DNA of 64,000 nucleotides from Bacteroidales bacterium (GTDB lineage: Bacteria > Bacteroidota > Bacteroidia > Bacteroidales > JAADJA01): positions 62,001 to 126,000 of the forward strand of contig JAGVPB010000042.1 in NCBI GenBank assembly GCA_020052415.1. Reading direction: 5' to 3'. The notes under the pieces are model-generated. The model did not search any database. It was not told the origin of the DNA and saw only the letters and a program-made list of their open reading frames with translations. The translations under genes were made by a program, and so were the position numbers. Position 1 is the stretch's first letter. Each line of letters begins with the position of its first letter. This document shows positions 2,249 to 58,968 of the stretch, piece by piece.

Positions 2249-2418
2249 GAAATTTATCCATATCCAATAAATTATAGACTCCCGGGTAATTCAAATATAA
2301 TTGACAGCTTTTTAAACCAAATTTATAAATTACCCCCTCTCCCTGATCCTTTTTATTTTACTATAGCGTTTAAAATATGCACTTTATGTTTAGGATGATT
2401 CTAAATATTGTAAGTATT

Positions 2419-2448
2419 TTGTTATTTAACATATTCATTTTAGTTTTG
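2419..2448 (+). promoter_or_regulatory. Promoter of formate dehydrogenase operon
   Basis: TTG at 2419-2421, a 19-base spacer, and TAGTTTTG at 2441-2448 match the Bacteroidota housekeeping promoter (TTG, then TAnnTTTG) exactly. Transcription would start near 2455, giving a leader of about 185 bases. Confidence 0.65.
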
Positions 2449-2450
2449 CC

Positions 2451-2468
2451 CTGTTAAATAATTAACAG
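2451..2468. promoter_or_regulatory. Rex-type operator over the formate operon start site
   Basis: CTGTTAA-ATAA-TTAACAG is a perfect 7-bp inverted repeat with a 4-base spacer. It matches the known Rex operator layout (TTGTTAA-N4-TTAACAA type). It begins two bases after the -7 box, so bound Rex would block initiation. A rex gene lies 14 kb away with a similar site at its own promoter. Binding is inferred. Confidence 0.65.
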
Positions 2469-2639: not shown

Positions 2640-3047
2640 ATGCAAAAGCAATTTACACTTTCCGTAAAATGTCCTCATTGTGGCCAATCATTTATGGATG
2701 AGGACCATTATCTGAATGGATTTCCTGCGGTTAAAGTTACGGTTGAAACCGAACAGGAAAAAGGCATACTATACTTATGCCCAATTTATGGCTGTTTTAA
2801 GCATGTTTGTACCATCAAATTAAAGGACCATGAAATAGTCACATTATACTGTCCGCATTGCCAAACATCCCTGATGCGTGAGGTCTTATGCAAAAGCTGT
2901 ACGGCTCCGATGGTCGGTTTTAATATTAATGTTGGCGGAAAGGTAAATATTTGTTCCCGCAAAGGATGTCAAAACCATAATTTAGTGTTTGAAGATTCCA
3001 ATGATCTCATAAATTTATTTTATGACAAGTTCGATGCGAGATATTAA
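2640..3047 (+). CDS. Small zinc-ribbon protein, formate-locus paralogue 2
   Basis: This 135-residue cytoplasmic protein has four Cys clusters: CPHC near residue 11, CPIYGC near 47, CPHC near 78 with CKSC near 90, and CSRKGC near 109. These would make two zinc ribbons. It is the first gene after the formate operon promoter and ends 17 bp before fdhA, so it is cotranscribed with the enzyme. It is homologous to the 1790-2248 protein. The family was not recognised; possible jobs are chaperoning, sulfur or metal delivery to the molybdenum enzyme, or a structural subunit. No such role can be read directly from the sequence. Confidence 0.65.
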   Translation: MQKQFTLSVKCPHCGQSFMDEDHYLNGFPAVKVTVETEQEKGILYLCPIYGCFKHVCTIKLKDHEIVTLYCPHCQTSLMREVLCKSCTAPMVGFNINVGGKVNICSRKGCQNHNLVFEDSNDLINLFYDKFDARY

Positions 3048-3064: not shown

Positions 3065-5791
3065 ATGGAAAATACTGTAAGAATTAAAATTGATGGAAAA
3101 TATTATGAAGCTGTTACCGGTAAAACAGTTTTAGAAGTTGCACGCGAAAACAATATTTATATACCCACCTTATGTTATCATCCGAGAACCGGAAAAGCAG
3201 GTAAATGCAGAGCTTGCCTGATAGAACTTGAAGGAGCTCCAAACCTGAAAGAAAGTTGCTCACTCACTGTCAAGGATGGGATGAATATAAAAACGATGAC
3301 AGATGCGATCATTCAGGTTCGTAAAATGATCGTTGAACTTTACCTTTCGAATGGAGATCACAATTGTATTTCCTGCGAAAGAAACGGGCATTGCGAGTTG
3401 CAGGATATGGCATATCATCTCGGTATCGAACGACCGGGATTTCTTGTTGAATCAAAGAAATTTCCGCTTGATAACTCATCCGAAGGGATTATCAGAGACG
3501 CTAACAAATGTATTCAATGCGGCAGATGTGTAACGGCTTGCAATAACAATGTGATGCATGAAGTACTTGATTTTGGCTGGCGTTCGGGCAATATGAAGGT
3601 AATTTGCGATAATGACCTCCCTATGGGTGATTCCTCGTGCGTGCAATGTGGTGAGTGCGCACAGATATGTCCTGTCGGAGCTTTGATTTTTAAAACGGCC
3701 GTTGGAAAAGCCAGATGGTGGGAAGCTGAAAAGAAAAAAGTTATTTGCCCCTACTGTGGAGTCGGTTGTTCAATTGATATCTATGTAAAGGACAATAAGT
3801 ACCTATGGTCATTGGGCACTGAGGAAGATTGGGAGAAGTTACCGAACAAAGGTATGTTATGCGTTAAAGGTCGCTTTGGACTGGACTATCTCAACCATCC
3901 CGAGCGAATCAAAACCCCTTTAATTAAAAGATATGGAAAGCTTGAAGAAGCTACATGGGATGAAGCATTATCGCTGGTTGTTAAAAAGCTGAGTGAAATA
4001 AAATCAAGATTTGGGTCAGGCGCCCTGGGTTTCTTTGCATCGGCCAAGGTTACGAACGAAGAGAACTATGCGATGATGCGACTTGCCAGAGGCATATTCG
4101 GAACCAATAATGTTGACCATTGTGCCCGCCTTTGCCATGCTTCAACCGTTGCTGGCCTTGCAGCCACCTTTGGTTCAGGAGCTATGACAAACAGCATGCA
4201 GGAAGCAGATAAATCAGATGTCATTTTGGTGACTGGAACAAATACCACCTGGAATCATCCTGTTTTTGGCGGAATGATTAAAAATGCTGTAAAAAGGAAA
4301 GGGGTGAAGCTTATCGTGGTTGATCCGCGTGATATTGATCTTGCAAAATGCGCGGATATTCATATTCGTCAGAGAAATGGTTCGGACGTTGCATGGTTAA
4401 TGGGTATGCAGCATATCATAATAAAAGAAAACCTGCATAAAAAGGAATACATTGATGAAAGATGCGAGGGCTGGGATGAGTATTTAAAAAGTCTTGAATT
4501 TTATACACCCTCAAAAGTTGAAGAATTAAGCGGGATTCCTGCAAAGCAACTTTACGAAGCAGCAAGGTTATTCGCTACAGCAGGGAAAGGAGCAATTTAT
4601 TTCAGCATGGGAATAACACAAAGTTCCCATGGAGTGGATAATGTTAAAGCGGTTTCGAATTTAGCCATGATTACAGGCAACGTTGGCTTCGAAGGAACAG
4701 GTGTAAATCCCCTTCGCGGGCAATCGAACGTGCAGGGCGCCTGTGATATGGGATGCCTGCCTAATGTGTTTTCAGGTTATCAACCGGTTACAAATGAGGA
4801 TATCCGTAAAAAGTTTGCTGATGCGTGGGGTATAAACGCCGAAGCAATGGATGATAAAATCGGCCAAACAGTCACAACTATGGTCAATAACGCCGGCGAT
4901 ACCATCAGAGGACTTTATATAATGGGTGAAAACCCAATGGTTTCCGATCCAAATCTTAATCATGCCGAAGAACAATTCAAAAAGCTTGATTTTATCGTTG
5001 TGCAGGATATTTTCCTGACTGAAACAGCGCAACTTGCCGATGTTGTATTACCTGCAGCAGCCTTTGCTGAAAAAACAGGCTGTTACACAAATACCGAACG
5101 CAGGGTTCAGTTATCAAGAGAGGCACTTAAGCATCCTGAAGGCGCCAGGCATGATTATGAAATTATTGCAGAAATTGCCCGCAGGCTTGGATATGAAGAT
5201 TTCCCTGCCACTCCGCAGGCATTATTTGAAGAAATGAGAATCCTTACACCTTCCTATAAAGGAATGACTTATGAAAGGCTTGAGAAAGAAAATGGCCTCA
5301 GATGGCCGTGCCCAAATGAAGATCATCCGGGCACTCCCATTCTTCATGTAGGTAAGTTCACACGAGGAAAAGGACTTTTGGTTCCACTGGAATACAGAGG
5401 GCCAGCAGAAGTACCGGATAAGGACTACCCGATCTGGCTAACGACCGGTCGTCTTTTGGAACATTATCATACCGGTTCTATGTCCAGAAGATCATTGGTA
5501 TTAGATGGACTTACACCCCATGGCGAAGTAGAAATAAGTCAAAAGGACGCACAAAAACTTAAAATTGTACAGGGTGAAAAGGTCAGGGTTTCAACACGCA
5601 GGGGCACCATAGAAATCAATGCACAAGTTACTACTCGTGTGAAGGAAGGTATGATTTTCATTCCGTTTCATTTTGTTGAATCTGCTGCTAACCGGCTAAC
5701 CATTGATGCGCTTGATCCGATAGCTAAAATTCCTGAATACAAAGTATGCGGTGCTAAAGTGGAAAAGATTATTCATGTTTCAGAAAACTAA
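3065..5791 (+). CDS. fdhA: NAD-dependent formate dehydrogenase, catalytic alpha subunit
   Basis: This 908-residue molybdenum or tungsten bis-MGD enzyme oxidises formate to CO2, or the reverse, and passes electrons to a diaphorase. The N-terminus is NuoG-like: a plant-type [2Fe-2S] domain (C37, C48, C51, C65), a His-Cys3 [4Fe-4S] site (H99, C101, C104, C110) and a two-cluster ferredoxin (C149-C159 and C181/C192-C202 region). The FdhF-like catalytic part begins with a [4Fe-4S] motif (C228, C231, C235, C266). The metal ligand is C357 in CARLCHAS, so this is the cysteine form, not selenocysteine. The molybdopterin dinucleotide-binding domain ends the protein. The diaphorase subunit follows after 12 bp. 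No twin-arginine signal is present, so it works in the cytoplasm. Confidence 0.95.
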   Translation: MENTVRIKIDGKYYEAVTGKTVLEVARENNIYIPTLCYHPRTGKAGKCRACLIELEGAPNLKESCSLTVKDGMNIKTMTDAIIQVRKMIVELYLSNGDHNCISCERNGHCELQDMAYHLGIERPGFLVESKKFPLDNSSEGIIRDANKCIQCGRCVTACNNNVMHEVLDFGWRSGNMKVICDNDLPMGDSSCVQCGECAQICPVGALIFKTAVGKARWWEAEKKKVICPYCGVGCSIDIYVKDNKYLWSLGTEEDWEKLPNKGMLCVKGRFGLDYLNHPERIKTPLIKRYGKLEEATWDEALSLVVKKLSEIKSRFGSGALGFFASAKVTNEENYAMMRLARGIFGTNNVDHCARLCHASTVAGLAATFGSGAMTNSMQEADKSDVILVTGTNTTWNHPVFGGMIKNAVKRKGVKLIVVDPRDIDLAKCADIHIRQRNGSDVAWLMGMQHIIIKENLHKKEYIDERCEGWDEYLKSLEFYTPSKVEELSGIPAKQLYEAARLFATAGKGAIYFSMGITQSSHGVDNVKAVSNLAMITGNVGFEGTGVNPLRGQSNVQGACDMGCLPNVFSGYQPVTNEDIRKKFADAWGINAEAMDDKIGQTVTTMVNNAGDTIRGLYIMGENPMVSDPNLNHAEEQFKKLDFIVVQDIFLTETAQLADVVLPAAAFAEKTGCYTNTERRVQLSREALKHPEGARHDYEIIAEIARRLGYEDFPATPQALFEEMRILTPSYKGMTYERLEKENGLRWPCPNEDHPGTPILHVGKFTRGKGLLVPLEYRGPAEVPDKDYPIWLTTGRLLEHYHTGSMSRRSLVLDGLTPHGEVEISQKDAQKLKIVQGEKVRVSTRRGTIEINAQVTTRVKEGMIFIPFHFVESAANRLTIDALDPIAKIPEYKVCGAKVEKIIHVSEN

Positions 5792-5803: not shown

Positions 5804-7537
5804 ATGAGTGATAAATTAATTAATGATATCCGGTTACTTTCGGCGAAATATCCAAAAAAGGAATCTGCTTTGATTCCTGCTTTAATGCTTGCGCAAAAAT
5901 CCAACTTTAATAACCTGACACAAGATGCCCTGTTGCAGGTGGCTGACCTGGTCGGTGTTACACCCTCCAGAGCCTTTGGAGTCGCCAGTTATTATAGCAT
6001 GTTCAATATAGGTAAAAAAGTCGGAAAATATCACTTGCAGGTTGATACCAATATTCCTGCGACTTTGATGGGTGCTAAGAAAATTTACAGCTATCTGGAA
6101 GAAAAGTTAGGGATCAGTAAAGGTGAAACAACACGTGATGGGATGTTTACTTTAAGCTCTGTGGAAGATCTTGCATCATGCGGTACCACTCCCGTTATCC
6201 AGGTTAATGATGTATATTATGAAAGCATGACCCATGAAAAAGTTGACATTCTCATTGATTCTCTAAAAGAAGGAATTATGCCACCTAAGGAGGTTACCTA
6301 TAATTGGGGAACCAAGTGTGATGTCCTTTTAAAAAGGAGAGGCATTAAAAACTCTACTTCGATAAAAGTATATAAAAAAAACGGCGGGTATCAGGCTCTG
6401 GCTAAAGCATTAAAAATGAAGCCGGAAGAAATAATCGAGGAAGTAAAAGAGTCAGAAATAGGAGGGCGCGGCGGAGCCGGATTTCCTACCGGGTTAAAAT
6501 GGGGATTTGTACCCAAAACCAGCCCTAAGCCTGTTTACCTGATTTGCAATGCTGATGAAGGAGAGCCAGGTACTTTCAAGGACCGTGAAATCATGGAATA
6601 TGATCCGCATTTGTTGATTGAAGGGATCGCTATTTCTGCTTATGCCATTGGAAGTAAATTCGCTTTTATATATATCCGGGGTGAGTTTGAATGGATTGCA
6701 GGTATCCTCGAAAAGGCAATTTCCGAAGCCAGGGCAGATAAACAACTCAAAGACCTTGAAATTGTGGTTCACCGGGGAGCTGGATCTTATGTTTGCGGTG
6801 AAGAAACTGCATTAATAGAATCTCTTGAAGGCAAAAGAGGTTTTCCAAGAATGAAGCCACCTTTCCCTGCCATCGAAGGATTATATGGTTGTCCGACCGT
6901 CGTTAATAATGTTGAAACACTGTCAGTTATTCCCTTTATCATCGAAAAAGGAGCAGGAGAGTTTAAAAAAATCGGAACAGCCGATGGCTTTGGTATGAAG
7001 CTTTTTGGGATTTCCGGAGCAGTTAACAAGCCAGGCGTTTACGAATGTCCGATGGGTATCCCATTTGCCGAACTGATCGAATTTGCAGGTGGCTTTAAAG
7101 GTAAAATTAAAGGAGTGATCGTTGGCGGTTTGTCAACTCCAATACTTACAGCAGAAGACCTGATGAAGGGTAATGGATTAAAGATGAATGGTAAATCATG
7201 CAGGAATTATGGTACAGCTTTGGGCTCGGGTGGAATAATGGTAATTGGTGAGGAATTCTCAATACCTGAAATTGCCTTAAGGACCATGGAGTTTTATCAT
7301 CACGAATCGTGCGGACAATGTACGCCCTGCAGACTTGGTTCAGGAATGCTCCTGAAAATATTGAAAAAAATAGTTGACGGCCATGGAGAAAAGGGTGATA
7401 TTGATAATGCCTTGTGGTTTTGTAACAACATCAGAGGAAACACATTATGTCCGACAGGTGAAGCTTATGCCTATCCGATTAAAATGATGATATTAAAATT
7501 CAGAAATGAATTCGAACAATTAATCAATATTAATTAA
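5804..7537 (+). CDS. fdhB: Formate dehydrogenase diaphorase subunit, NuoE-NuoF fusion
   Basis: This 577-residue subunit should take electrons from FdhA to NAD+. Residues 1-155 are a NuoE-like thioredoxin fold, but only one of the four usual [2Fe-2S] ligands remains: the positions are D81, A86, D122 and C126. Residues 215-577 are NuoF: GRGGAGFPTG at 221-230 for FMN/NADH binding, NADEGEPGTF near 249, an SLBB segment near 405, and the N3 [4Fe-4S] cluster at C503, C506, C509 and C549. The C-terminal ferredoxin found in some hydrogenase subunits is absent. It lies 12 bp after fdhA and 18 bp before the transporter. Whether it couples to ferredoxin as well as NAD is unknown. Confidence 0.9.
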   Translation: MSDKLINDIRLLSAKYPKKESALIPALMLAQKSNFNNLTQDALLQVADLVGVTPSRAFGVASYYSMFNIGKKVGKYHLQVDTNIPATLMGAKKIYSYLEEKLGISKGETTRDGMFTLSSVEDLASCGTTPVIQVNDVYYESMTHEKVDILIDSLKEGIMPPKEVTYNWGTKCDVLLKRRGIKNSTSIKVYKKNGGYQALAKALKMKPEEIIEEVKESEIGGRGGAGFPTGLKWGFVPKTSPKPVYLICNADEGEPGTFKDREIMEYDPHLLIEGIAISAYAIGSKFAFIYIRGEFEWIAGILEKAISEARADKQLKDLEIVVHRGAGSYVCGEETALIESLEGKRGFPRMKPPFPAIEGLYGCPTVVNNVETLSVIPFIIEKGAGEFKKIGTADGFGMKLFGISGAVNKPGVYECPMGIPFAELIEFAGGFKGKIKGVIVGGLSTPILTAEDLMKGNGLKMNGKSCRNYGTALGSGGIMVIGEEFSIPEIALRTMEFYHHESCGQCTPCRLGSGMLLKILKKIVDGHGEKGDIDNALWFCNNIRGNTLCPTGEAYAYPIKMMILKFRNEFEQLININ

Positions 7538-7555: not shown

Positions 7556-8908
7556 ATGACAGAAAAAAAACAAAATCGTTGGCTTATTGCGATCAGTGGC
7601 ACTGTTCTGCAGTTGGCATTGGGTACAGTTTATGCCTGGAGTTATTTTCAAAAACCAATAATGGCGGCATTTGGCTGGTCAAATGTTCAGGTGATGTGGA
7701 TTTTTAGTTTGGCAATTTGCTTCCTTGGTATTTCTGCTGCCTGGGGAGGAATGAACCTCGCTAAATATGGTCCCAAGAAATTAGCAATTTCCGGTGCGAT
7801 ATTATTTGCAGTCGGTTATTTTATTGGATCATTCGCCATGTCAATAAACAATGTTGTATTGCTATACATCGGTTATGGTGTTATCGGTGGTTGCGGATTG
7901 GGACTTGGCTATGTTACACCGGTTGCGACTGCTGCAAAATGGTTCCCGGATAAGAAAGGTTTTATTACCGGTATGGTTGTGATGGGATTTGGACTTGGAG
8001 CTTTAATTATGTCTAAATTTATCGCACCCGCTTTAATGACCGGATTTAATGGAATACTAAAATCTATTCCTGCTGAATCTTTTGTTGATGGAAAGCTTAT
8101 TGATGAAACTGTTAAAGCATCTCTTCAGGGTGAATTAGTAATGGTATTTTTATATGCCGGATTAATTTTACTTGCTATTGCTCTACCTGCTGCCATAATA
8201 ATGCGTACTCCACCTGCCGGATATGTACCCAAAGGATATACGCCTCCTGCTCAGAGTGCCTCAAGTCAGGCCAGCGAAGAAAAATTAACCGCAAAAATCT
8301 GTATTCTTTCCAGCAAGTTCTACAGGATGTGGATTATTTTCTTCCTGAATATATCTGCAGGCATCATGTTTATCGGCCTTCAATCCCCGATGCTGCAAGA
8401 CCTTTTAAAAAAGGCCGGCTCAACTATGGATGCAGCCGCACTGGCCGCCACCGGCGGTACATTAATTGCCATCAGTTCATTATTTAACGGAATTGGACGG
8501 TTCTTCTGGGGCGGATTATCTGACAAAATAGGCCGGATTCAAACATTCCGCTTAATCCTGGCTTCTCAGCTTGTTGTATTTATTGCCTTGATTTGGATAG
8601 GAAATCCCTGGATATTTGGAATCATGGTTTGTTATGTACTTCTTTGTTATGGCGGCGGATTCGGAACAATGCCCTCTTTTGTAGGAGACATTTTTACTGC
8701 TAAATTAATGCCTGTGGTTTATGGAACTATATTAACCGCGTGGTCTGTTGCAGGAATTGTCGGACCTCAGATTGCTGCTTTCATAAAAGATAATTACAAA
8801 GCTGAAGCACCCACTTATACCTTTGCAACCGGTGCTATATTTTTAGGCATTGGAGTATTAATAGCCTTCACATTGAATAATAAATCACTTGCATCAGTAA
8901 ATAAATAA
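7556..8908 (+). CDS. OFA-family MFS transporter, probable formate carrier
   Basis: This 450-residue protein has about twelve membrane segments in two halves with a polar central loop near residues 220-245 (PPAGYVPKGYTPP). The N-terminus NRWLIAISGTVLQLALGTVYAWSYF and the loop motif GGLSDKIGR fit the oxalate/formate antiporter family of the major facilitator superfamily. It follows the diaphorase gene by 18 bp, so it probably belongs to the formate operon and moves formate, or exchanges it for another carboxylate, across the inner membrane. The substrate is inferred from family and position; oxalate or another monocarboxylate cannot be ruled out. Confidence 0.85.
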   Translation: MTEKKQNRWLIAISGTVLQLALGTVYAWSYFQKPIMAAFGWSNVQVMWIFSLAICFLGISAAWGGMNLAKYGPKKLAISGAILFAVGYFIGSFAMSINNVVLLYIGYGVIGGCGLGLGYVTPVATAAKWFPDKKGFITGMVVMGFGLGALIMSKFIAPALMTGFNGILKSIPAESFVDGKLIDETVKASLQGELVMVFLYAGLILLAIALPAAIIMRTPPAGYVPKGYTPPAQSASSQASEEKLTAKICILSSKFYRMWIIFFLNISAGIMFIGLQSPMLQDLLKKAGSTMDAAALAATGGTLIAISSLFNGIGRFFWGGLSDKIGRIQTFRLILASQLVVFIALIWIGNPWIFGIMVCYVLLCYGGGFGTMPSFVGDIFTAKLMPVVYGTILTAWSVAGIVGPQIAAFIKDNYKAEAPTYTFATGAIFLGIGVLIAFTLNNKSLASVNK

Positions 8909-12295: not shown

Positions 12296-13005
12296 TTATA
12301 AATCAAGAAATATAATTCCCAGTCCGCTTAAAAGTATTATTGCCCCAGCAAGGGCATGCGTGTATTTTTCAAACTTTCCAAGGGGTAAAAAATTCATTCC
12401 AAATGTCATCAATAGCACAATCGTGAGCATAGTGCCGATGGTTACTAAAGAGAAAATTGTACTGATGATGATCAATCCAGAGGTGCTATGTTCCGCAGCA
12501 GGATACAGCAATATTGGAATCAGCGGTTCACAGGGTCCCAATACAAAAATGGTAAACAAAATCCAGGGTGTAATGCTTTGCTTGTGTAAATGATCGTGGC
12601 TGTTGGTATGGTCAATGTCATGCATAGTACCGTCATTATGAAAATGAATATGTTTGTGTGGCTTGTTAACCAATACCCTTCGAAGCCCCCAAAGGAAATA
12701 AGTGAGTCCGAAGATAACAAATGCCCTGGCTGCCAGATTGCCCTTTGTCCCTTCAACAGCTTCGAGTTTCCATACTGCAATTCCAAATGCAATTCCAATG
12801 GTACCAACAACTATTGAGCTTCCTACGTGTCCTATCCCACAGGCGACAGTAATCCATGAAGTCTTGAACATTGACCATTTACCTGCTTTTGCCATGAATA
12901 TAAAAGGAACATAATGATCCGGGCTAAAAAAGTATGTAAAAATCCAATTGAAGCTGCCGTCCAGGACAATACTATCAATTCACTGGTTATAATTATTGCA
13001 ATCAT
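12296..13005 (-). pseudogene. NicO/UreH-like membrane transporter, one frameshift
   Basis: The main frame (12296-12895) encodes about six membrane helices, a central His-rich loop with many His and Asp residues (near 12630-12670), and a GPCEPLIPILLYP helix, as in UreH/NicO-type nickel or cobalt transporters. Upstream, the same frame continues SPDHYVPFIF without a start. The proper N-terminus, MIAIIITSELIVLSWTAASI followed by GFLHTF, is in another frame starting at 13005. The two meet at a run of six A (12926-12931; T on the coding strand). One extra T would restore HTFFSPDHYVPF. So the gene is either broken by one base, phase-variable, or carries a sequencing error. Metal export or uptake is a family-based guess. 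Confidence 0.6.
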
Positions 13006-13310
13006 TTAAAATTCGAGGTATAAAACTATTATAAATGAACATACCCTGAGAATTTGTAGCAAAAATAATTTCTTGAATAAGGTCTATTTATAAGAAGTAA
13101 TTCCCATTTTGAAACAATAAAAAAGGATATGTGTTTTCCTATCTATTGATATTAAACTATTTAAGAGGCTTAAATAAAATAGTATAAATTTTGATAAATA
13201 TATTATCTATTTATAGAGAATATTACTAAAAACGGAAAGGGTTATTTTAAAGTTTTTAGTATTTTCAACCAGTTAACAAATTGTTTTACATAATAACAAA
13301 ATTTAGAAAA
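13006..13310. other. AT-rich intergenic region
   Basis: About 305 bp between two diverging genes. No coding frame, RNA gene or exact promoter match was seen. The last 50 bases resemble the leader of the next paralogue at 14600-14652, so the duplication of the two lipoprotein genes included their leaders. Confidence 0.5.
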
Positions 13311-14342
13311 ATGAAAAAACAAATTAAAAATTCAATTTTCCTGCTTATTGCAGTTCCATTTCTATTTATGGGCTGTCAAAAAAGTGAAGTAATGGACGAT
13401 GCGCAAAAGGCAAATCCAAATTCTGAAGGTTCTCAGACCTTAAAAAGTACAATTACATATTGTGGAACTCCGCTCAATGCCAACCTTGTTGATTTTGAAG
13501 AAACTATTATTGCCGGTACTGCTGTTATTGGCAACGATGAAACTAAATTGTACGTGAGCTATGAACTGACAGGTGACTGGTGGATTCAAAATGCCGTATT
13601 ATTTGCAGGTCCTGCAGATTCTGCTGGATTAATTCATCCTGATGGCAGCGGGCAGTTTGCACCATGGTATTGGAATCCTCCTTACAGGCATGATTTTTTC
13701 CCCTGGGATTTTACGCAGACACATACATTTGAGGTTGATTTAAGCACCCTTGATAATTGTTTTACTGTTGTGGCATACATCTATTCAAAAAATTTAGTCA
13801 CAGGCGAACATAAATATATTTGGGGCAAAAGTGTGACCAAAGTAAGCGGATATTATCTGGAATATTGCAAACAAAGTTGCACAACTCCACCGCCCCCTCC
13901 TCTTGGTGGCTGTGAAACCGGTTATGCTTATGGTGAATCCTATGCTAATTGTTTTCTTAATATTCCGGGTGTAAATTCAAATAACTGGGGTTGGTCGAAC
14001 GGTCAAATCGGTGCCGGAAATTATACATGGCCCATTTATGCCGGAGCCGGTCAGTGCAATATTGGCAATGGTACTCTTGTGGGCTATCTCCAGGTAAATT
14101 ATGCTCCACCCACTGCAACAGTTACCTATTCAATGCTGGATGGTTATATTATGAATGTGACCCACCTTTATGTCGGAACCCAGATATTGCCAAAGAAAAA
14201 GAATAAATTTATAACAGCACCGGGGCAATTTCCATACAAACACTGCAATTTAAACGGTGCATCATTCGACACCTTTACAATCAACGGACTTTCAGGTTCA
14301 ATATATGTAGTTGCACATTCAGAAGTATGTGATGATATTTGA
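13311..14342 (+). CDS. Lipoprotein of unknown function, tandem copy 1
   Basis: This 343-residue protein begins with a lipoprotein signal and lipobox (FLFMGC, Cys22), so it should be anchored in the outer membrane. The ATG at 13311 is chosen because it starts that signal. A first domain (residues 50-190) contains TYCGTPL, GDWWIQNAVLFAGP, an acidic GSGQFAPW stretch and WGKSVTK. A proline-rich linker precedes a second domain from about residue 200 (GGCETGYAYGESYANCF, NNWGWSNGQI, YTWPIYAGAGQC) of a kind seen in Bacteroidota surface proteins. It is a close paralogue of the next gene. A strong terminator follows. Function unknown; carbohydrate or surface binding is possible. Confidence 0.7.
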   Translation: MKKQIKNSIFLLIAVPFLFMGCQKSEVMDDAQKANPNSEGSQTLKSTITYCGTPLNANLVDFEETIIAGTAVIGNDETKLYVSYELTGDWWIQNAVLFAGPADSAGLIHPDGSGQFAPWYWNPPYRHDFFPWDFTQTHTFEVDLSTLDNCFTVVAYIYSKNLVTGEHKYIWGKSVTKVSGYYLEYCKQSCTTPPPPPLGGCETGYAYGESYANCFLNIPGVNSNNWGWSNGQIGAGNYTWPIYAGAGQCNIGNGTLVGYLQVNYAPPTATVTYSMLDGYIMNVTHLYVGTQILPKKKNKFITAPGQFPYKHCNLNGASFDTFTINGLSGSIYVVAHSEVCDDI

Positions 14343-14370
14343 TATTTTTAGAGTCATTGTATTCTAATTT

Positions 14371-14402
14371 GGCAGGTCAATGAAAGACCTGCCTTTTTTT
14401 AT
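14371..14402 (+). terminator. Rho-independent terminator
   Basis: The stem GGCAGGTC / GACCTGCC with a 7-base loop is followed by seven T. It lies 28 bp after the first lipoprotein stop. Confidence 0.9.
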
Positions 14403-14652
14403 TTATTGGGTCAAAAGAAAAGATTTTCCTCCCATTTTGAAACTGATTGCAAGCATGCATTCTATTATTAATTCATGATATCCAATGGGTTATAGCAATA
14501 TTTAATTGTTGCATATCTTTTGTTGCTCTTAATGTACGGAATTAATGATAAGAACCTTCATAAAATTAAAGAGGTATAATTTTTTATTGAATTTTACTCA
14601 ACCGGTACAAAATCTTTTTTACAAAATATCATACATAACTAAATCTTTTAAA

Positions 14653-15675
14653 ATGAAAAAACAATTTACAAATTCAATTTACCTGCTTATGGCAATTCCG
14701 TTACTCTTTGTCGGCTGTCAGAAAAACGAAGTTGCGGATGATGTTCAAAAATCAAAACTGGAATCCGAAGGTTCCGGATTACTAAAGAACACGATTACAT
14801 ATTGTGGAACACCCATGGTTGCAAACCTTGTTGATTTTGAACAAACCATTAATCCCGGAACTGTAACTGTCGGGAATGATGAGACCAAACTTTATGTTAC
14901 TTATGAGCTTTCGGGCGACTGGTGGATTCAGAATGCAACCCTGTATGTAGGGCCTGCCGCCAATGTACCTGGAACTATGAATCCGGATGGGTCTGGAAAT
15001 TTTACACCCTGGTATCCCTATTTCCCGTATTACTATTATCCCTGGGATTTTGTTCAAAACCATACTTTTGAAATTGACCTGAGCACCCTTGAGGATTGTT
15101 TTGTAGTAATAGCTTATGCTAACTCAAAAAACCTGGTGACCAATGAAAATAAATTTATCTGGGGAAAGAGTGTTTTAAAATATGAGGGATATTACCTCGA
15201 ATATTGCAAACAAACTTGCGGACCACCTCCGCTCGGAGGGTGTGAATCGTCTTATGCGTATGGAAGCGATTATGCAACTTGCTTTTTAAATATTCAATGG
15301 TTACAAGGTGATAACTGGGGATGGACGAATGGCAGGTTAAATGTCGGAACTTATACCTGGCCAATTTATGCTAAAGCCAATAATTGTGTTACAACTGATG
15401 GGTTGATAGTCGGTAGTGTAACCGTGACCTACAATGCATGTCATAAGGTTTTTGTTACTTATAATGTACTAGACGGGTACGAACTCTCAAAAACGCGTCT
15501 TTTTGTAGGATTCCTTCCGTTCCCTATTCATCACTGGCATTTTACAACGGATCCTGACCACTTTCCCTACAAGCATCTTAATCTGAATGGAGCCACAACA
15601 GATACCTTCACAGTCTGCGGTGTTTGGGGAAAAATATATGTTATTGCTGAAGCTGAAGTCTGCGACGCCGATTAA
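14653..15675 (+). CDS. Lipoprotein of unknown function, tandem copy 2
   Basis: This 340-residue protein is the paralogue of the gene before it, with the same two domains in the same order: lipobox LFVGC (Cys22), ITYCGTPMVANLVDFE, GDWWIQNATLYVGP, then GGCESSYAYGSDYATCF and NWGWTNGRLNVGTYTWPIYA. The ATG at 14653 begins the signal peptide; an earlier in-frame ATG at 14545 would give a nonsense leader. Four or more conserved Cys per protein suggest disulfides outside the cytoplasm. The two copies each have their own terminator, so they are separate transcription units. They differ mostly in surface loops, as expected after duplication and divergence. Confidence 0.7.
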   Translation: MKKQFTNSIYLLMAIPLLFVGCQKNEVADDVQKSKLESEGSGLLKNTITYCGTPMVANLVDFEQTINPGTVTVGNDETKLYVTYELSGDWWIQNATLYVGPAANVPGTMNPDGSGNFTPWYPYFPYYYYPWDFVQNHTFEIDLSTLEDCFVVIAYANSKNLVTNENKFIWGKSVLKYEGYYLEYCKQTCGPPPLGGCESSYAYGSDYATCFLNIQWLQGDNWGWTNGRLNVGTYTWPIYAKANNCVTTDGLIVGSVTVTYNACHKVFVTYNVLDGYELSKTRLFVGFLPFPIHHWHFTTDPDHFPYKHLNLNGATTDTFTVCGVWGKIYVIAEAEVCDAD

Positions 15676-16641: not shown

Positions 16642-16659
16642 CTGTTAATAAAATAACAA
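16642..16659. promoter_or_regulatory. Rex-type operator at the rex promoter
   Basis: CTGTTAATAAAATAACAA matches CTGTTAA-N4-TTAACAG in most positions. It begins one base after the -7 box, nearly the same place as the operator of the formate operon. It suggests that Rex represses its own gene. Two half-site bases deviate from the formate-operon site, so binding may be weaker. Confidence 0.55.
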
Positions 16660-16673
16660 ATGATTTGCTAACT

Positions 16674-17291
16674 ATGAAAAATTTACCGGATAAAACGGTT
16701 GAGAGGCTAAGCCAGTACAGAAGAAGCCTGAATAATCAATTGGTAAAAGGGAAAACCCATATTTTTTCGCATGAAATAGCTAATTTGCTCCATATCACGC
16801 CCGTGCAGGTGCGACGCGATATAATGCTCATCGGGTATTCGGGCACTTTACGTAAAGGGTACGATATAAAAGAGATGGTAGATTTAATTGGTAAGATAAT
16901 AGATACTGAGGAAGGTCAGAAAATTGCTGTAATCGGGATGGGTAATCTTGGTAAAGCTTTTATTCATTACCTTCAGGAAAAAAGATCAAAATTAAATATT
17001 GTTGCCGCTTTTGATATTAATCCTGAGAAAATAAACAAGACCTATGCCGGGGTAAAATGTTATCACTTCGATCAGTTGGTTGAGATTGTCAGATCTGAAA
17101 ATATAAGTATAGGAATCATAACAACTCCACCGGAGGTTGTATCGCAAATTGCCGATAAGTTGAATGAAGCCGGAATAAAAGGCATACTGAACTTTACTCC
17201 CAAACCATTAAGTGCGAGGGAAGGAATTTACCTTGAGGAATATGATATGATTACTTCGCTTGAAAAGGTAGCTTACTTTGTGAAATCTTAA
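16674..17291 (+). CDS. rex: Redox-sensing transcriptional repressor Rex
   Basis: This 205-residue protein has an N-terminal winged helix (residues 1-75; SHEIANLLHITPVQVRRDI is the helix-turn-helix, LIGYSGTLRKGYD the wing) and a Rossmann fold with GMGNLG at 88-93 and a C-terminal swapped helix (ITSLEKVAYF). Rex binds NADH and NAD+ and leaves DNA when the NADH/NAD+ ratio is high. The ATG at 16674 is chosen because the predicted -7 box overlaps the upstream alternative. A Rex-type operator lies over its own start and over the formate operon start in this window. Length and motifs are normal for the family. Confidence 0.93.
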   Translation: MKNLPDKTVERLSQYRRSLNNQLVKGKTHIFSHEIANLLHITPVQVRRDIMLIGYSGTLRKGYDIKEMVDLIGKIIDTEEGQKIAVIGMGNLGKAFIHYLQEKRSKLNIVAAFDINPEKINKTYAGVKCYHFDQLVEIVRSENISIGIITTPPEVVSQIADKLNEAGIKGILNFTPKPLSAREGIYLEEYDMITSLEKVAYFVKS

Positions 17292-54833: not shown

Positions 54834-56786
54834 TTAATTCAATCTTTTCAGAACAGGTAATTCCTTGGTGTCGAGGATCAGGGGAACTTTTTCCTCTATG
54901 ACACTGCTTGTGTCGAGTCCGTATGCCTTAACTTCACCCACGCCCAGGTATCTTATAAATCTGTAAATATCCATGATAAACTGCCTGAACGGAGTAAAAT
55001 CAAAATCATAGTTCTGAATACGGTCAATGAGAACAAATTTGAAATCACTGGTGATATTATGTTTTCTGAGCGATTTGTAGCGACTTAGTATATCTATTTC
55101 ATTGTTTCGCACCATTTCTTCTATAACCTGCCTGAAATAAAGGTTAATGCGCGGTTGAACTTTAAATCCAAGGTGGAAATTTATTTTAATAAGGGTGTCA
55201 GGAATCAGGGTTTCAACTTTATATTCCATCGTGTTGGGGTCATCCAGAATATCAATATGAAGAAACCAGTAACAATCGGCTCTTTTGGGACTTTTATTAA
55301 TGATCGAATATAGAATTTTCGATTCAATTTCATTCTTATAGTTTGCCCTGGTCAGGTAAACAAGATTGGTTGCAAATTTGGGTATTGTATTATCATTTTT
55401 AAGATCGCTGATGATGGGATAATATTTCTCAAGCCGGACAAACTGGAAAAACTGCTTTTTAATTGTTCTGCCCGAAAACCAAACGTACATGATAATAAAT
55501 ATGATGCCACCAACCAATAATGTAAACCATCCTCCATGAGCAAACTTATAAAGATTAGCTATCAGGAAAGATCCTTCAATTGACAGGTAAATCAGAAGGA
55601 AGATTGCAATATAAATGATTTTAAGCTTGCGATACCGCAGGTAATACACGAGGAGCAATGTAGTCATGAGCATGGTAATGGTAATTGATAAGCCATAAGC
55701 CGCTTCCATATTGGCTGATTTCTGGAAAAAAAGAATAACCAAAACACAGGCGAAATAAAGTGACCAGTTAATGGCTGAAATATACATCTGGCCCTTGATA
55801 TTAGTTGGATGGCTGATCCTCATTTTCGGCCAGAAATTAAGTTGAATAGCCTCACTTATGATCGTATAAGAACCGCTGATCATTGCCTGGCTTGCAATAA
55901 CTGCCGCTGCGGTTGCGATGATAACACCCGGTAATACAAACCAGGCAGGCATCATCCCGTAAAACGGGTTCAATTGCAGTGTCATGATATCCTGATTCGT
56001 CAGTATCCACGCTCCCTGGCCAAGGTAGTTAAGGATAAGTGTGATTTTAACATAAATCCAGGTAATCCTGATGTTTGCAAATCCACAGTGTCCAAGGTCG
56101 GAATATAATGCTTCGGCTCCGGTAGTACATAGAAACACCGCTCCGAGCAGCACAAAACCACCCGGATACTGAGTCAGGAAAAGGTAAGCATAATAGGGAT
56201 TGAAAGCTTTAAATATTTCAGGATACTTCATGATTTGAATGAAGCCCAGAGTTGCCAGCATTAAGAACCAGCAAAACATAGCGGGCCCGAAAAACTTTCC
56301 TATGAAGTTGGTTCCACCCTGTTGAATGACAAACAAAGCAGTGATAATTACCAAAGCTATCGGAACGACGGAAATGCCGGGATAAACTACGTCCAGTCCT
56401 TCAACGGCAGAAACAACGGTAATCGAGGGAGTTATAATTCCATCTGCAAGAAGTGCAGCAGCACCAATAATGGCAGGAATAAAAATCCACCTGCCTCTTT
56501 TCCGGATAATGGCATATAATGAAAAAATTCCACCTTCACCCTTATTGTCAGCCCTCAGAGTAATTAAGACATACTTAATGGTTGTTTGAAGGGTCAGTGT
56601 CCAGATGATACATGACAGAGCACCCAGAATAAATACAGGTGTTATTCCTTCAACTGCTCCAAGTAAGATTGCCCTAATTACATAGAGAGGCGAGGTTCCT
56701 ATGTCTCCGAACACTATTCCCAGCGTAATCAGTGATCCTGCAACAGAAAGTTTACTCGCCTGACTCAAATGATCCGTCTTGCTCAT
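54834..56786 (-). CDS. kup: Low-affinity potassium transporter Kup
   Basis: This 650-residue inner membrane protein imports K+ with H+. It has twelve helices with the family marks LGIVFGDIGTSPLYVIRAIL near residue 25, GEGGIFSLYAIIRKRGRW near 85, GDGI-like ADGIITPSITVVSAVEGL, and a soluble C-terminal tail of about 180 residues. The ATG at 56786 is chosen because the predicted promoter (56801-56829) would lie inside a longer version starting at 56840. It converges with the barrel gene. Confidence 0.94.
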   Translation of the reverse strand: MSKTDHLSQASKLSVAGSLITLGIVFGDIGTSPLYVIRAILLGAVEGITPVFILGALSCIIWTLTLQTTIKYVLITLRADNKGEGGIFSLYAIIRKRGRWIFIPAIIGAAALLADGIITPSITVVSAVEGLDVVYPGISVVPIALVIITALFVIQQGGTNFIGKFFGPAMFCWFLMLATLGFIQIMKYPEIFKAFNPYYAYLFLTQYPGGFVLLGAVFLCTTGAEALYSDLGHCGFANIRITWIYVKITLILNYLGQGAWILTNQDIMTLQLNPFYGMMPAWFVLPGVIIATAAAVIASQAMISGSYTIISEAIQLNFWPKMRISHPTNIKGQMYISAINWSLYFACVLVILFFQKSANMEAAYGLSITITMLMTTLLLVYYLRYRKLKIIYIAIFLLIYLSIEGSFLIANLYKFAHGGWFTLLVGGIIFIIMYVWFSGRTIKKQFFQFVRLEKYYPIISDLKNDNTIPKFATNLVYLTRANYKNEIESKILYSIINKSPKRADCYWFLHIDILDDPNTMEYKVETLIPDTLIKINFHLGFKVQPRINLYFRQVIEEMVRNNEIDILSRYKSLRKHNITSDFKFVLIDRIQNYDFDFTPFRQFIMDIYRFIRYLGVGEVKAYGLDTSSVIEEKVPLILDTKELPVLKRLN

Positions 56787-56800
56787 TTCAAAAAATTGTC

Positions 56801-56829
56801 CAAAAGTATTGAAATTTAATTGACGCCAA
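56801..56829 (-). promoter_or_regulatory. Promoter of kup
   Basis: On the minus strand TTG (56829-56827), an 18-base spacer and TACTTTTG (56808-56801), all matching. The start of transcription would be about 8 bases before the ATG. Confidence 0.65.
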
Positions 56830-56891
56830 AAAAATGGCAATCTGTTTTTTCATTTCCTTTAAAACATCTGGTACTATTTATTAATAAATCA

Positions 56892-56920
56892 TTGAATATC
56901 CATAATTTAATATAATTTTG
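56892..56920 (+). promoter_or_regulatory. Promoter of the DEAD-box helicase gene
   Basis: TTG at 56892-56894, an 18-base spacer and TAATTTTG at 56913-56920. The leader is about 70 bases. Confidence 0.65.
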
Positions 56921-56995
56921 CCAAACAATATTTTGTTCCGGGCAGATTCAAAGCGTATTGCTTTTTGTGACGGATCAACAACAAAAAGACAAACG

Positions 56996-58717
56996 ATGAT
57001 TACATTTGAAGAAACCGGGTTAAAGGCTGAATTGCTGAGTGCAGTTCAGGAACTTGGATTTATAACCCCAACACCCATCCAGGAAAAAATCATTCCGGCA
57101 TTATTAGCTAACGGCCGGGATATTATCGGACTTGCTCAGACCGGAACAGGTAAAACTGCGGCCTTCGGGTTGCCCATCATTCAGCGCAGTGATATCAATT
57201 CAGGAAAACCTCAGGCGCTTGTTTTATGTCCGACAAGGGAATTGTGTATTCAGGTTACAGGTGACCTAACAGCATATTCCCGTTTTATTAAAAATTTCCG
57301 TGTAGTGGCTGTTTATGGTGGCGCCAGTACAGAAATCCAAATCAAAGACCTTAAAAAAGGGAGCCATATTGTTGTCGGAACACCGGGCCGGGTTCTCGAT
57401 CTGTTAAAACGTAAGGTACTCAATATATCTGATATCAAATGGATGGTTCTGGATGAAGCGGATGAAATGCTGAATATGGGTTTCAAAGAAGAACTCGATG
57501 CAATTTTAGACAGAACCCCTGAAGTTAAGCAAACATTGTTATTTTCCGCCACTATGCCTGACGAAATCAGGCGGATAGCTGAAAAATACATGCAAAAGCC
57601 GGAAGAGATCAGTGTTGGGAAAAAAAATATGGGCGCCGAAAATGTAAGGCATGAAGTTTATATTGTTCATGCAAAGGACCGCTATGAAGTGTTGAAACGG
57701 ATCGCCGACATCAACCCTAATATTTATGGTATTGTTTTTTGCAGAACACGCAGCGAAACAAAGGCAGTTGCTGAAAAACTCATATCGGATGGCTACAATG
57801 CCGATGCCCTTCACGGAGACTTGTCGCAGGCTCAGCGCGAATCGGTGATGAACCGGTTCAGAACAAAATTCCTGCAACTGCTTGTTGCAACTGATGTAGC
57901 CGCACGCGGACTCGATGTGAGCGATCTTTCGCATATCATAAACTACAACCTGCCTGATGAACTGGATGTTTATATTCATCGCAGCGGGCGGACCGGAAGG
58001 GCCGGAAAAAAAGGAATCTCGGTTACCATTTTACACTCCCGTGAAGTGAGAAAGATCGGTGACCTTGAAAAGCTGATCGGGAAAAAATTTGAACGTAAAC
58101 CGGTTCCTGGCGGGAAGGAAATTTGCGAAAAGCAATTGTTCAACCTGATTGATAAAGTCGAAAATATAAAGGTTGACGATTCACAGATTGACCAATACCT
58201 GCCTGTGATTTATAAAAAGCTGGAATGGCTGGAGCGCGAAGACCTTATCAAACATTTTGTATCTGTGGAGTTTAATCGTTTTTTATCCTATTATAAAAAT
58301 GCTCCAGATTTAAACACTGTAAAACATGAAAGAACGGAAAGAGAGACCTATAACAGGAGTAGCGCCACCTCCTTTTCAAGATTTTTTATAAGTGTGGGAT
58401 CCAAAAGTAACCTTACCGTTCCCCGTTTGATCGGATTGATAAATGATCATACCCGGACAAGAACCATCCAGATCGGTAAAATCGAGATCATGAAGAAGTT
58501 CTCCTTTTTCGAAATTGACAGCGCTTATGAAAAGGAACTATTGAAAGCTTTAAAAAATGCAAAATACGAGGGCGGATCTGTAACTGTACAATTATCGAGA
58601 CCGGACATAAAACAACCGGATATGAGAGAATACATCAGGCAAAAGCCTGACAGAAAAAGCTTCAGGGGGAAAAGCCGGGAAAGAAAAACATCCGGGAATA
58701 GAAAACGAAGAATATAG
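56996..58717 (+). CDS. DEAD-box RNA helicase, CsdA/DbpA-like
   Basis: This 573-residue helicase unwinds RNA, probably in ribosome assembly or at low temperature. The Q motif (GFITPTPIQEKIIP), AQTGTGKT, VLDEADEML, SAT and HRSGRTGRAG motifs are present in order. A DbpA-type RNA-binding domain covers about residues 465-540 (RFFISVGSKSNLTVPRLIGLI), and the tail is basic (KSFRGKSRERKTSGNRKRR). The ATG at 56996 is chosen because the promoter overlaps the in-frame TTG at 56918. Confidence 0.94.
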   Translation: MITFEETGLKAELLSAVQELGFITPTPIQEKIIPALLANGRDIIGLAQTGTGKTAAFGLPIIQRSDINSGKPQALVLCPTRELCIQVTGDLTAYSRFIKNFRVVAVYGGASTEIQIKDLKKGSHIVVGTPGRVLDLLKRKVLNISDIKWMVLDEADEMLNMGFKEELDAILDRTPEVKQTLLFSATMPDEIRRIAEKYMQKPEEISVGKKNMGAENVRHEVYIVHAKDRYEVLKRIADINPNIYGIVFCRTRSETKAVAEKLISDGYNADALHGDLSQAQRESVMNRFRTKFLQLLVATDVAARGLDVSDLSHIINYNLPDELDVYIHRSGRTGRAGKKGISVTILHSREVRKIGDLEKLIGKKFERKPVPGGKEICEKQLFNLIDKVENIKVDDSQIDQYLPVIYKKLEWLEREDLIKHFVSVEFNRFLSYYKNAPDLNTVKHERTERETYNRSSATSFSRFFISVGSKSNLTVPRLIGLINDHTRTRTIQIGKIEIMKKFSFFEIDSAYEKELLKALKNAKYEGGSVTVQLSRPDIKQPDMREYIRQKPDRKSFRGKSRERKTSGNRKRRI

Positions 58718-58722
58718 ATAAC

Positions 58723-58874
58723 CTTACAGTCCAGAACCGTGGACAGGCAGCGGCAGAGATGATATTCGCGATTTGACCTATAAGGGTTATATTGTTGTTT
58801 ATAAAATAAACGAGAGGGATAATGCCATTGAAGTATTCGGCTTCACTAAGTTCGAAGAAAACCCATTTAAATAA
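58723..58874 (+). pseudogene. RelE/ParE-type toxin, C-terminal fragment
   Basis: Right after the helicase stop a frame reads PYSPEPWTGSGRDDIRDLTY, then KGYIVVYKINERDNAIEVFG and FTKFEENPFK before a stop. This is the C-terminal half of a RelE/ParE-family toxin. A stop codon precedes it directly and there is no start or N-terminal half, so it is a remnant. No antitoxin gene is adjacent. Confidence 0.65.
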
Positions 58875-58968
58875 GGAATATTAGTTACATCTGCCACAGA
58901 TTATTATTGTTACACCTCTCTACAGCAGGCAAGTTCACAGATTAAAGGATTAAGAATAAGTGAATCCA

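Follow-up and report, generated by a model that had tools for sequence, protein, structure and literature searches.

Which regulator, if any, reads the perfect palindrome that directly follows the promoter of a formate dehydrogenase (fdh) operon in this Bacteroidales genome, and what would its control imply for the direction in which the enzyme runs? The window, i.e., the whole stretch of 64,000 nucleotides that was analyzed (contig C55, 62001-126000), begins inside an FdhE-like gene (sub-cut-off match) and carries both the operon and a rex gene (Table 1).

Table 1. Positions of promoter elements, candidate operators and genes in the window.
Feature	Position	Strand	Basis
TTTG, -33-like element of Bacteroidota promoter	2418..2421	+	read in sequence; consensus in available text of PMC7366714
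TAGTTTTG, -7 element (TAnnTTTG), 19 bases past TTG	2441..2448	+	read in sequence
CTGTTAA-ATAA-TTAACAG, candidate Rex operator; predicted start near left end	2451..2468	+	matrix, conservation
Cys-rich small protein (Zn-ribbon-like), 135 aa, first gene of operon	2640..3047	+	sub-cut-off matches only
fdhA, formate dehydrogenase alpha, NuoG-like Fe-S N-terminus, 908 aa	3065..5791	+	TIGR01591 824 bits (cut-off 666); Pfam
NuoE+NuoF fusion, NAD/FMN subunit, 577 aa	5804..7537	+	NF010120 over cut-off; Pfam domains
MFS transporter, oxalate/formate antiporter group	7556..8908	+	NF049980 336.5 bits (cut-off 320)
CTGTTAATAAAATAACAA, putative operator at rex promoter, one base after TACTTTTG	16642..16659	+	sequence, matrix
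rex, redox-sensing repressor, 205 aa from ATG at 16674	16674..17291	+	PF06971 52.2 bits (cut-off 27)

The fdh promoter, its palindrome and the operon

The preliminary description had claimed a TTG-N19 promoter followed two bases later by CTGTTAA-ATAA-TTAACAG, and the bases read exactly so. The span TTTG-N19-TAGTTTTG-CC-CTGTTAA-ATAA-TTAACAG occupies 2418-2468, with the TTG (2419-2421) extending to TTTG, the N19 spacer at 2422-2440 and the CC at 2449-2450, placing the putative operator two bases after TAGTTTTG, next to a start site that is itself predicted. Both promoter elements fit the Bacteroidota consensus of TTTG at -33 and TAnnTTTG at -7, as given in the available text of PMC7366714. Together with a SusC/RagA gene and nearest FdhA relatives labelled Bacteroidetes, this promoter type suggests that the genome belongs to Bacteroidota. 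The combination TTG-N19-TAnnTTTG occurs four times in the window (one on the plus strand, three on the minus strand), and the gap bearing the fdh promoter measures 391 bases. A second small palindrome, TGTTA-TT-TAACA, lies across the -33 element at 2420-2431; its spacing is too short for a second Rex site, which rules it out as such.

FdhA matches the equivalog model of formate dehydrogenase alpha subunits (TIGR01591) and is accompanied by a NuoE/NuoF-type subunit (NF010120). Because FdhA has a NuoG-like N-terminus and NuoE and NuoF are present as a fusion, the operon is predicted to encode an NAD-linked formate dehydrogenase. Bifurcating formate dehydrogenases and hydrogenases are marked by a C-terminal 2[4Fe-4S] domain on the NuoF-type subunit. 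Pfam finds no C-terminal ferredoxin domain on the NuoF-type part here (the last domain ends at residue 572 of 577), so electron bifurcation is unlikely. The first gene has a similar counterpart ahead of fdhA at two loci of other genomes, L047 and L099 (recognised by eye). The transporter is presumed to belong to the operon on account of its 18-base gap; its substrate is uncertain, the NCBIfam name being L-lactate MFS transporter and TIGR00890 staying below cut-off. The active-site position of FdhA is a Cys (DHCARLC), against an in-frame TGA (DHCARL-TGA-HS) in all eight relatives read for it (L047-L051, L094, L095 and L099). The TGA therefore probably encodes selenocysteine in these relatives, and the FdhA of the window would be a Cys variant. 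To the left of the window, at 56582-60832 of the same contig, a second formate dehydrogenase, of the FdnG type (TIGR01553, 1191 bits), has an FNR-like regulator 400 bases upstream and an Fe-S subunit directly after it.

The palindrome as such is unremarkable. Perfect 7+4+7 palindromes occur three times in the window while 6.5 are expected (range 3-12 in 50 Markov-1 simulations), and the 7-4-7 pattern with up to three mismatches occurs seven times versus 4.5 expected. Palindrome statistics were thus discarded as proof of function, and it is the sequence, place and company of the fdh site that carry the case. Its exact core, TGTTAANNNNTTAACA, is present once in the window and once in the 4.67-Mb genome (94 contigs), with no occurrence of the reversed control; base composition would give about one in the genome by chance, as estimated by hand. 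A more discriminating measure is a matrix of 18 bases derived from the 170 bases before 13 rex orthologues of other genus members (L077-L089). It was trained on 26 of 28 sites (two with three mismatches were omitted) from genomes that are related to each other, and it presumes that Rex regulates rex. In the window, this matrix ranks the fdh site first (23.9 bits) and the site at the rex promoter second (21.7), followed by a next hit of 11.9; none of 60 simulated 64-kb windows reaches 23.9, their maximum being 17.6.

Rex and the sites at rex and formate operons

Knowledge of Rex comes mostly from Gram-positive bacteria and Thermotogae. The rex gene of the window, 14 kb from the fdh site, is the sole PF06971 match of the genome. 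Among Rex chains in the PDB, its product is most similar to B. subtilis Rex (E 5e-36, residues 3-204 aligned), and its Rossmann NAD domain contains the dinucleotide motif GMGNLG. When the twelve DNA-contacting positions of T. maritima Rex are located by eye in the alignment, six residues are identical here, including Arg48, the reader of G5 in T. maritima Rex, one Lys is replaced by Arg (Lys49) and five differ. The latter include K43->T and G61->R, both at positions termed conserved in the available text of PMC8836258, which also describes the DNA contacts of T. maritima Rex and its release by NADH.

The rex promoter has the layout TACTTTTG-C-CTGTTAATAAAATAACAA, like the fdh promoter. Each of the 13 close orthologues of rex in the genus carries a similar site, set 0-1 base behind TAnnTTTG. 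These 13 were counted out of 17 Rex-like genes in other genus genomes; the four distant ones (L090-L093), kept apart, comprise two with TTGTTAATCAATTAACAA and two without it. All 13 sister promoters (L077-L089) also hold a second, distal site, at a distance of 53-56 bases upstream, that is absent from the rex promoter of the window; such paired operators suggest looping or cooperative binding. Of 30 rex genes tested beyond the genus, only seven carry a site no more than 160 bases away (score of at least 14), so autoregulation is not general, and universal rex autoregulation was rejected.

In the remaining genomes of the genus (16, with completeness of 65-95%), a close FdhA is lacking, and conservation of the fdh site was therefore examined in other families. 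In a class-wide draw of 395 genomes, only the window's own FdhA appeared at E <= 1e-290. The 295 genomes of the order, together with named genomes, yielded seven non-genus matches at 71-75% identity; the nearest relatives are labelled Bacteroidetes. The operons compared were L047-L050, L094, L095 and L099, with the gap before each set by hand. Five of these lie in genomes with Rex, and the comparison of orthologous operons that the preliminary description had proposed shows operator-like sites ahead of all five. The best matrix score in the gap is 21.3 for L099 (reached in 1 of 4000 simulations), 19.9 for L095 (0 of 4000), 16.2 for L047 (11 of 4000), 15.6 for L049 (3 of 4000) and 15.0 for L094 (36 of 4000). 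No convincing site precedes the operons L050 and L048, in whose genomes Rex was not found: L050 scores a borderline 13.5, beside a divergent gene (69 of 4000), and L048 scores 4.6 (1835 of 4000). The ranking by score thus separates genomes with and without Rex perfectly, which for seven cases amounts to a p of about 0.05 (1/21, by hand). A layout like that of the window is seen at L047, where the site starts two bases after TACTTTTA, and at L049, where it directly follows TATTTTTG (0 bases). Upstream of fdhA at L094, L095 and L099, Rex-like sites come in tandem, at a spacing of exactly 17 bases.

Among more distant relatives, no site within two mismatches is present at L096-L098 (FdhA 70, 64 and 62% identical). 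The corresponding MAGs are labelled Planctomycetota, Gammaproteobacteria and Comamonadaceae, and the presence of such an FdhA in them points to either horizontal transfer or a binning error. The scan of distant FdhA loci with the two-mismatch pattern covered L051-L075 and L096-L098 and gave few matches, mostly within genes. One locus, L073 (G205:C146), has an exact TGTTAATAAATTAACA at 4717-4732, and the FdhA of this locus, 49% identical, follows about 1.2 kb downstream; Rex was not found in this genome (88% complete), and its family-mate G104 has Rex. On another contig, G062:C153, rex (6169-6783) and fdhA (12488-15196) are about 6 kb apart.

The wider set of sites and alternative readings

The own genome contains 29 one-mismatch sites, those at fdh and rex included. 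Since they are not in excess over the reversed control (29 vs 40), it is placement and not number that distinguishes them. Of the 29 sites, 21 are intergenic, and eight of these intergenic sites have TAnnTTTG no more than 25 bases upstream. For the control, of which 36 of the 40 sites were compared by place, the corresponding counts are 10 and 0. Genes near the sites encode phosphotransbutyrylase, malic enzyme, fructose-bisphosphate aldolase, glutamate dehydrogenase, acetate kinase (divergent, 171 bases off), an Rnf-like Fe-S protein, a BioF-type transferase, an Fe-S pyridine nucleotide oxidoreductase and an NAD-dependent epimerase-like protein. Genes for a SusC protein and HU are also near sites; not every neighbour suits Rex, and some are surely due to chance.

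Across 17 genomes of the genus, exact cores number 112 versus 25 for the control (hand sum). Of these 112, the 22 sites examined in sister genomes comprise all 14 from G006 and a choice of eight from five other genomes; 21 of the 22 are intergenic. Genes for phosphotransbutyrylase, for glutamate dehydrogenase and for the epimerase-like and Fe-S oxidoreductase proteins are again found beside them (orthology by family match only), and methylmalonyl-CoA mutase and NuoE/NuoF-type genes are added; seven scanned genes beside the 22 sites gave no family match at the limits used. At one locus (L182, G000:C87:63257-66610), two mirror-image Rex-like sites stand 338 bases apart between two outward-pointing frames, each 443 aa or longer, of which the right one, the only one scanned, is a glutamate dehydrogenase; the arrangement could be an inverted duplication or an assembly artefact.

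On the level of the order, the outcome of a Rex search was paired with exact motif and reversed-control counts over 295 genomes. A close Rex is encoded by 113 of the 295. In the 109 genomes with a close Rex outside the own genus, the motif occurs 278 times against 106 for the control, compared to 31 against 46 in the 66 genomes with only a distant Rex and 113 against 148 in the 116 genomes without a found Rex. Taken as group totals, these counts show an excess of the motif over the control only with a close Rex. Note that the cut between close and distant Rex (E <= 1e-58) was chosen after the list was seen and that the genomes are related, so order-wide p-values are too small. Seven genomes without a found Rex nonetheless have at least three motif sites in excess. 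Three of them (G171, G264 and G205; 76-88% complete) each share a family with a Rex-bearing genome. The other four (G137, G185, G218 and G301; 91-98% complete) have no such family explanation, save G137, which is in family f4 together with the Rex-bearing G234.

Another dimeric regulator, e.g., of the CRP/FNR family, might instead read the site as TGTTA-N6-TAACA, with rex as merely one of its targets. The dyad does have the 5-6-5 geometry of CRP-type sites, and the genome encodes five proteins with a cNMP-binding domain, of which only the FNR-like one was examined, whose gene precedes the fdnG-type gene some 5 kb to the left of the window. The FNR box, TTGATNNNNATCAA, is however not matched at the fdh site even with one mismatch (the window has eight matches versus 8.4 expected, none of them there), which rejects an FNR box at this position. 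Moreover, the motif excess and the fdh sites both track the presence of Rex, and several target genes suit Rex. We consider control by such a regulator improbable. Even less is to be said for a role of the palindrome as RNA, in which the beginning of the transcript would fold into a terminator or a leader hairpin; we judge this very unlikely. Its stem reaches -5.2 kcal/mol (z -3.8; equalled by none of 200 shuffles) and is followed by TATTTTTT, but a search for an intrinsic terminator (G+C stem and T run) gave none in 2240-2650 and this candidate was rejected, the site at the rex promoter lacks a T run, and the other sites keep the sequence rather than pairing alone. A functionless chance palindrome, as the expectation of 6.5 per window would allow, is hardly credible given the matrix score, which none of the 60 simulated windows and none of 4000 simulations of the fdh upstream gap attained, the TAnnTTTG directly beside the site and its conservation.

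Probable control by NADH and comparison with known systems

Five lines of evidence argue for Rex as the reader of the palindrome: the layout of the rex promoter, the matrix derived from sister genomes, conservation at fdh operons, targets in redox and carbon metabolism, and the order-wide excess. On these sequence-based grounds, it is highly likely that 2451-2468 is an operator at which Rex would repress the operon until NADH rises. With NAD+ in excess, a Rex dimer would occupy bases from about +1 to +18, and the position of the operator suggests that bound Rex keeps RNA polymerase from initiating the operon (Cys-rich protein, FdhA, NuoEF fusion and transporter). A rise in NADH would close the dimer and release it, allowing expression. 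The enzyme, made at high NADH, could then serve as an electron outlet by reducing CO2 to formate at the expense of NADH.

The preliminary description had tied formate oxidation to the NADH/NAD+ ratio. Rex as the binder stands up to the five sequence tests, while oxidation as the direction does not follow, as formate production fits at least as well. Because the enzyme would be made when NADH is already high, we regard NADH-consuming CO2 reduction as likelier than formate oxidation. Rex regulons elsewhere also include NADH-producing genes, however, so oxidation may still be the direction. More speculatively, the formate operon may move among Bacteroidota families together with its own Rex operator and make use of the resident Rex, the enzyme acting as an NADH-fed CO2 reductase for formate excretion. 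We see this as a possible but rather doubtful extension; in lineages without a found Rex, the operon has no convincing site. If true, control of the operon at high NADH would mark its enzyme as an NADH-fed CO2 reductase, part of a Bacteroidota Rex regulon built on the Clostridiaceae motif. The data suggest that many members of this Bacteroidota order possess a Rex regulon, and provide a testable motif and promoter geometry for it. This may help to explain how these anaerobes settle on formate or on particular fermentation products as NADH accumulates.

In the literature, no paper on Rex sites in Bacteroidota was found; most subscription journals fell outside the search, and we make no claim of a first report. 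The available text on RegPrecise 3.0 contains a Bacteroidaceae collection and a cited Rex study, which are not linked to each other. In the B. thetaiotaomicron reconstruction, Rex is mentioned a single time, among the references, and the available part of the HcpR paper shows no binding motif. A Clostridium hydrogenase gene is proposed to be Rex-regulated in a paper that names both Rex and formate dehydrogenase, with no formate dehydrogenase operator in the part of its text available.

The enzyme of the window is presumably comparable to the FdsABG-type NAD-dependent formate dehydrogenase. Both combine an FdhA with a NuoG-like N-terminus and a NuoE/NuoF-type subunit, but NuoE and NuoF are fused here. 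With the Rex proteins of B. subtilis, T. maritima and Thermus, the Rex of the window shares a near-full-length alignment, the GMGNLG motif and the recognition-helix Arg. It differs from T. maritima Rex in its wing (GTLRKGY instead of GKRGVGY) and at three further contact positions, where it has H, T and M. According to the available text of PMC8836258, T. maritima Rex recognises a G and, three bases further, an A; both halves of 2451-2468 contain this pair. As for the operator itself, the available texts give the Clostridiaceae Rex motif (ROP) as TTGTTAANNNNTTAACAA (PMC9600882, PMC5367854) and a general Rex consensus as TTGTGAANNNNTTCACAA (PMC6391272). The asserted likeness to the known Rex layout is borne out by 12 of the 14 fixed bases of the Clostridiaceae form: the fdh site fits the 18-bp form TTGTGAA/TTGTTAA-N4-TTCACAA/TTAACAA with two mismatches, both outermost. 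It is very probably a Rex operator, which would extend the Clostridiaceae motif to Bacteroidota. Length, spacing and both TGTTAA arms are shared with the ROP, whereas the outermost C and G replace T and A, and the fdh site, unlike the ROP, adjoins a Bacteroidota-type TAnnTTTG promoter.
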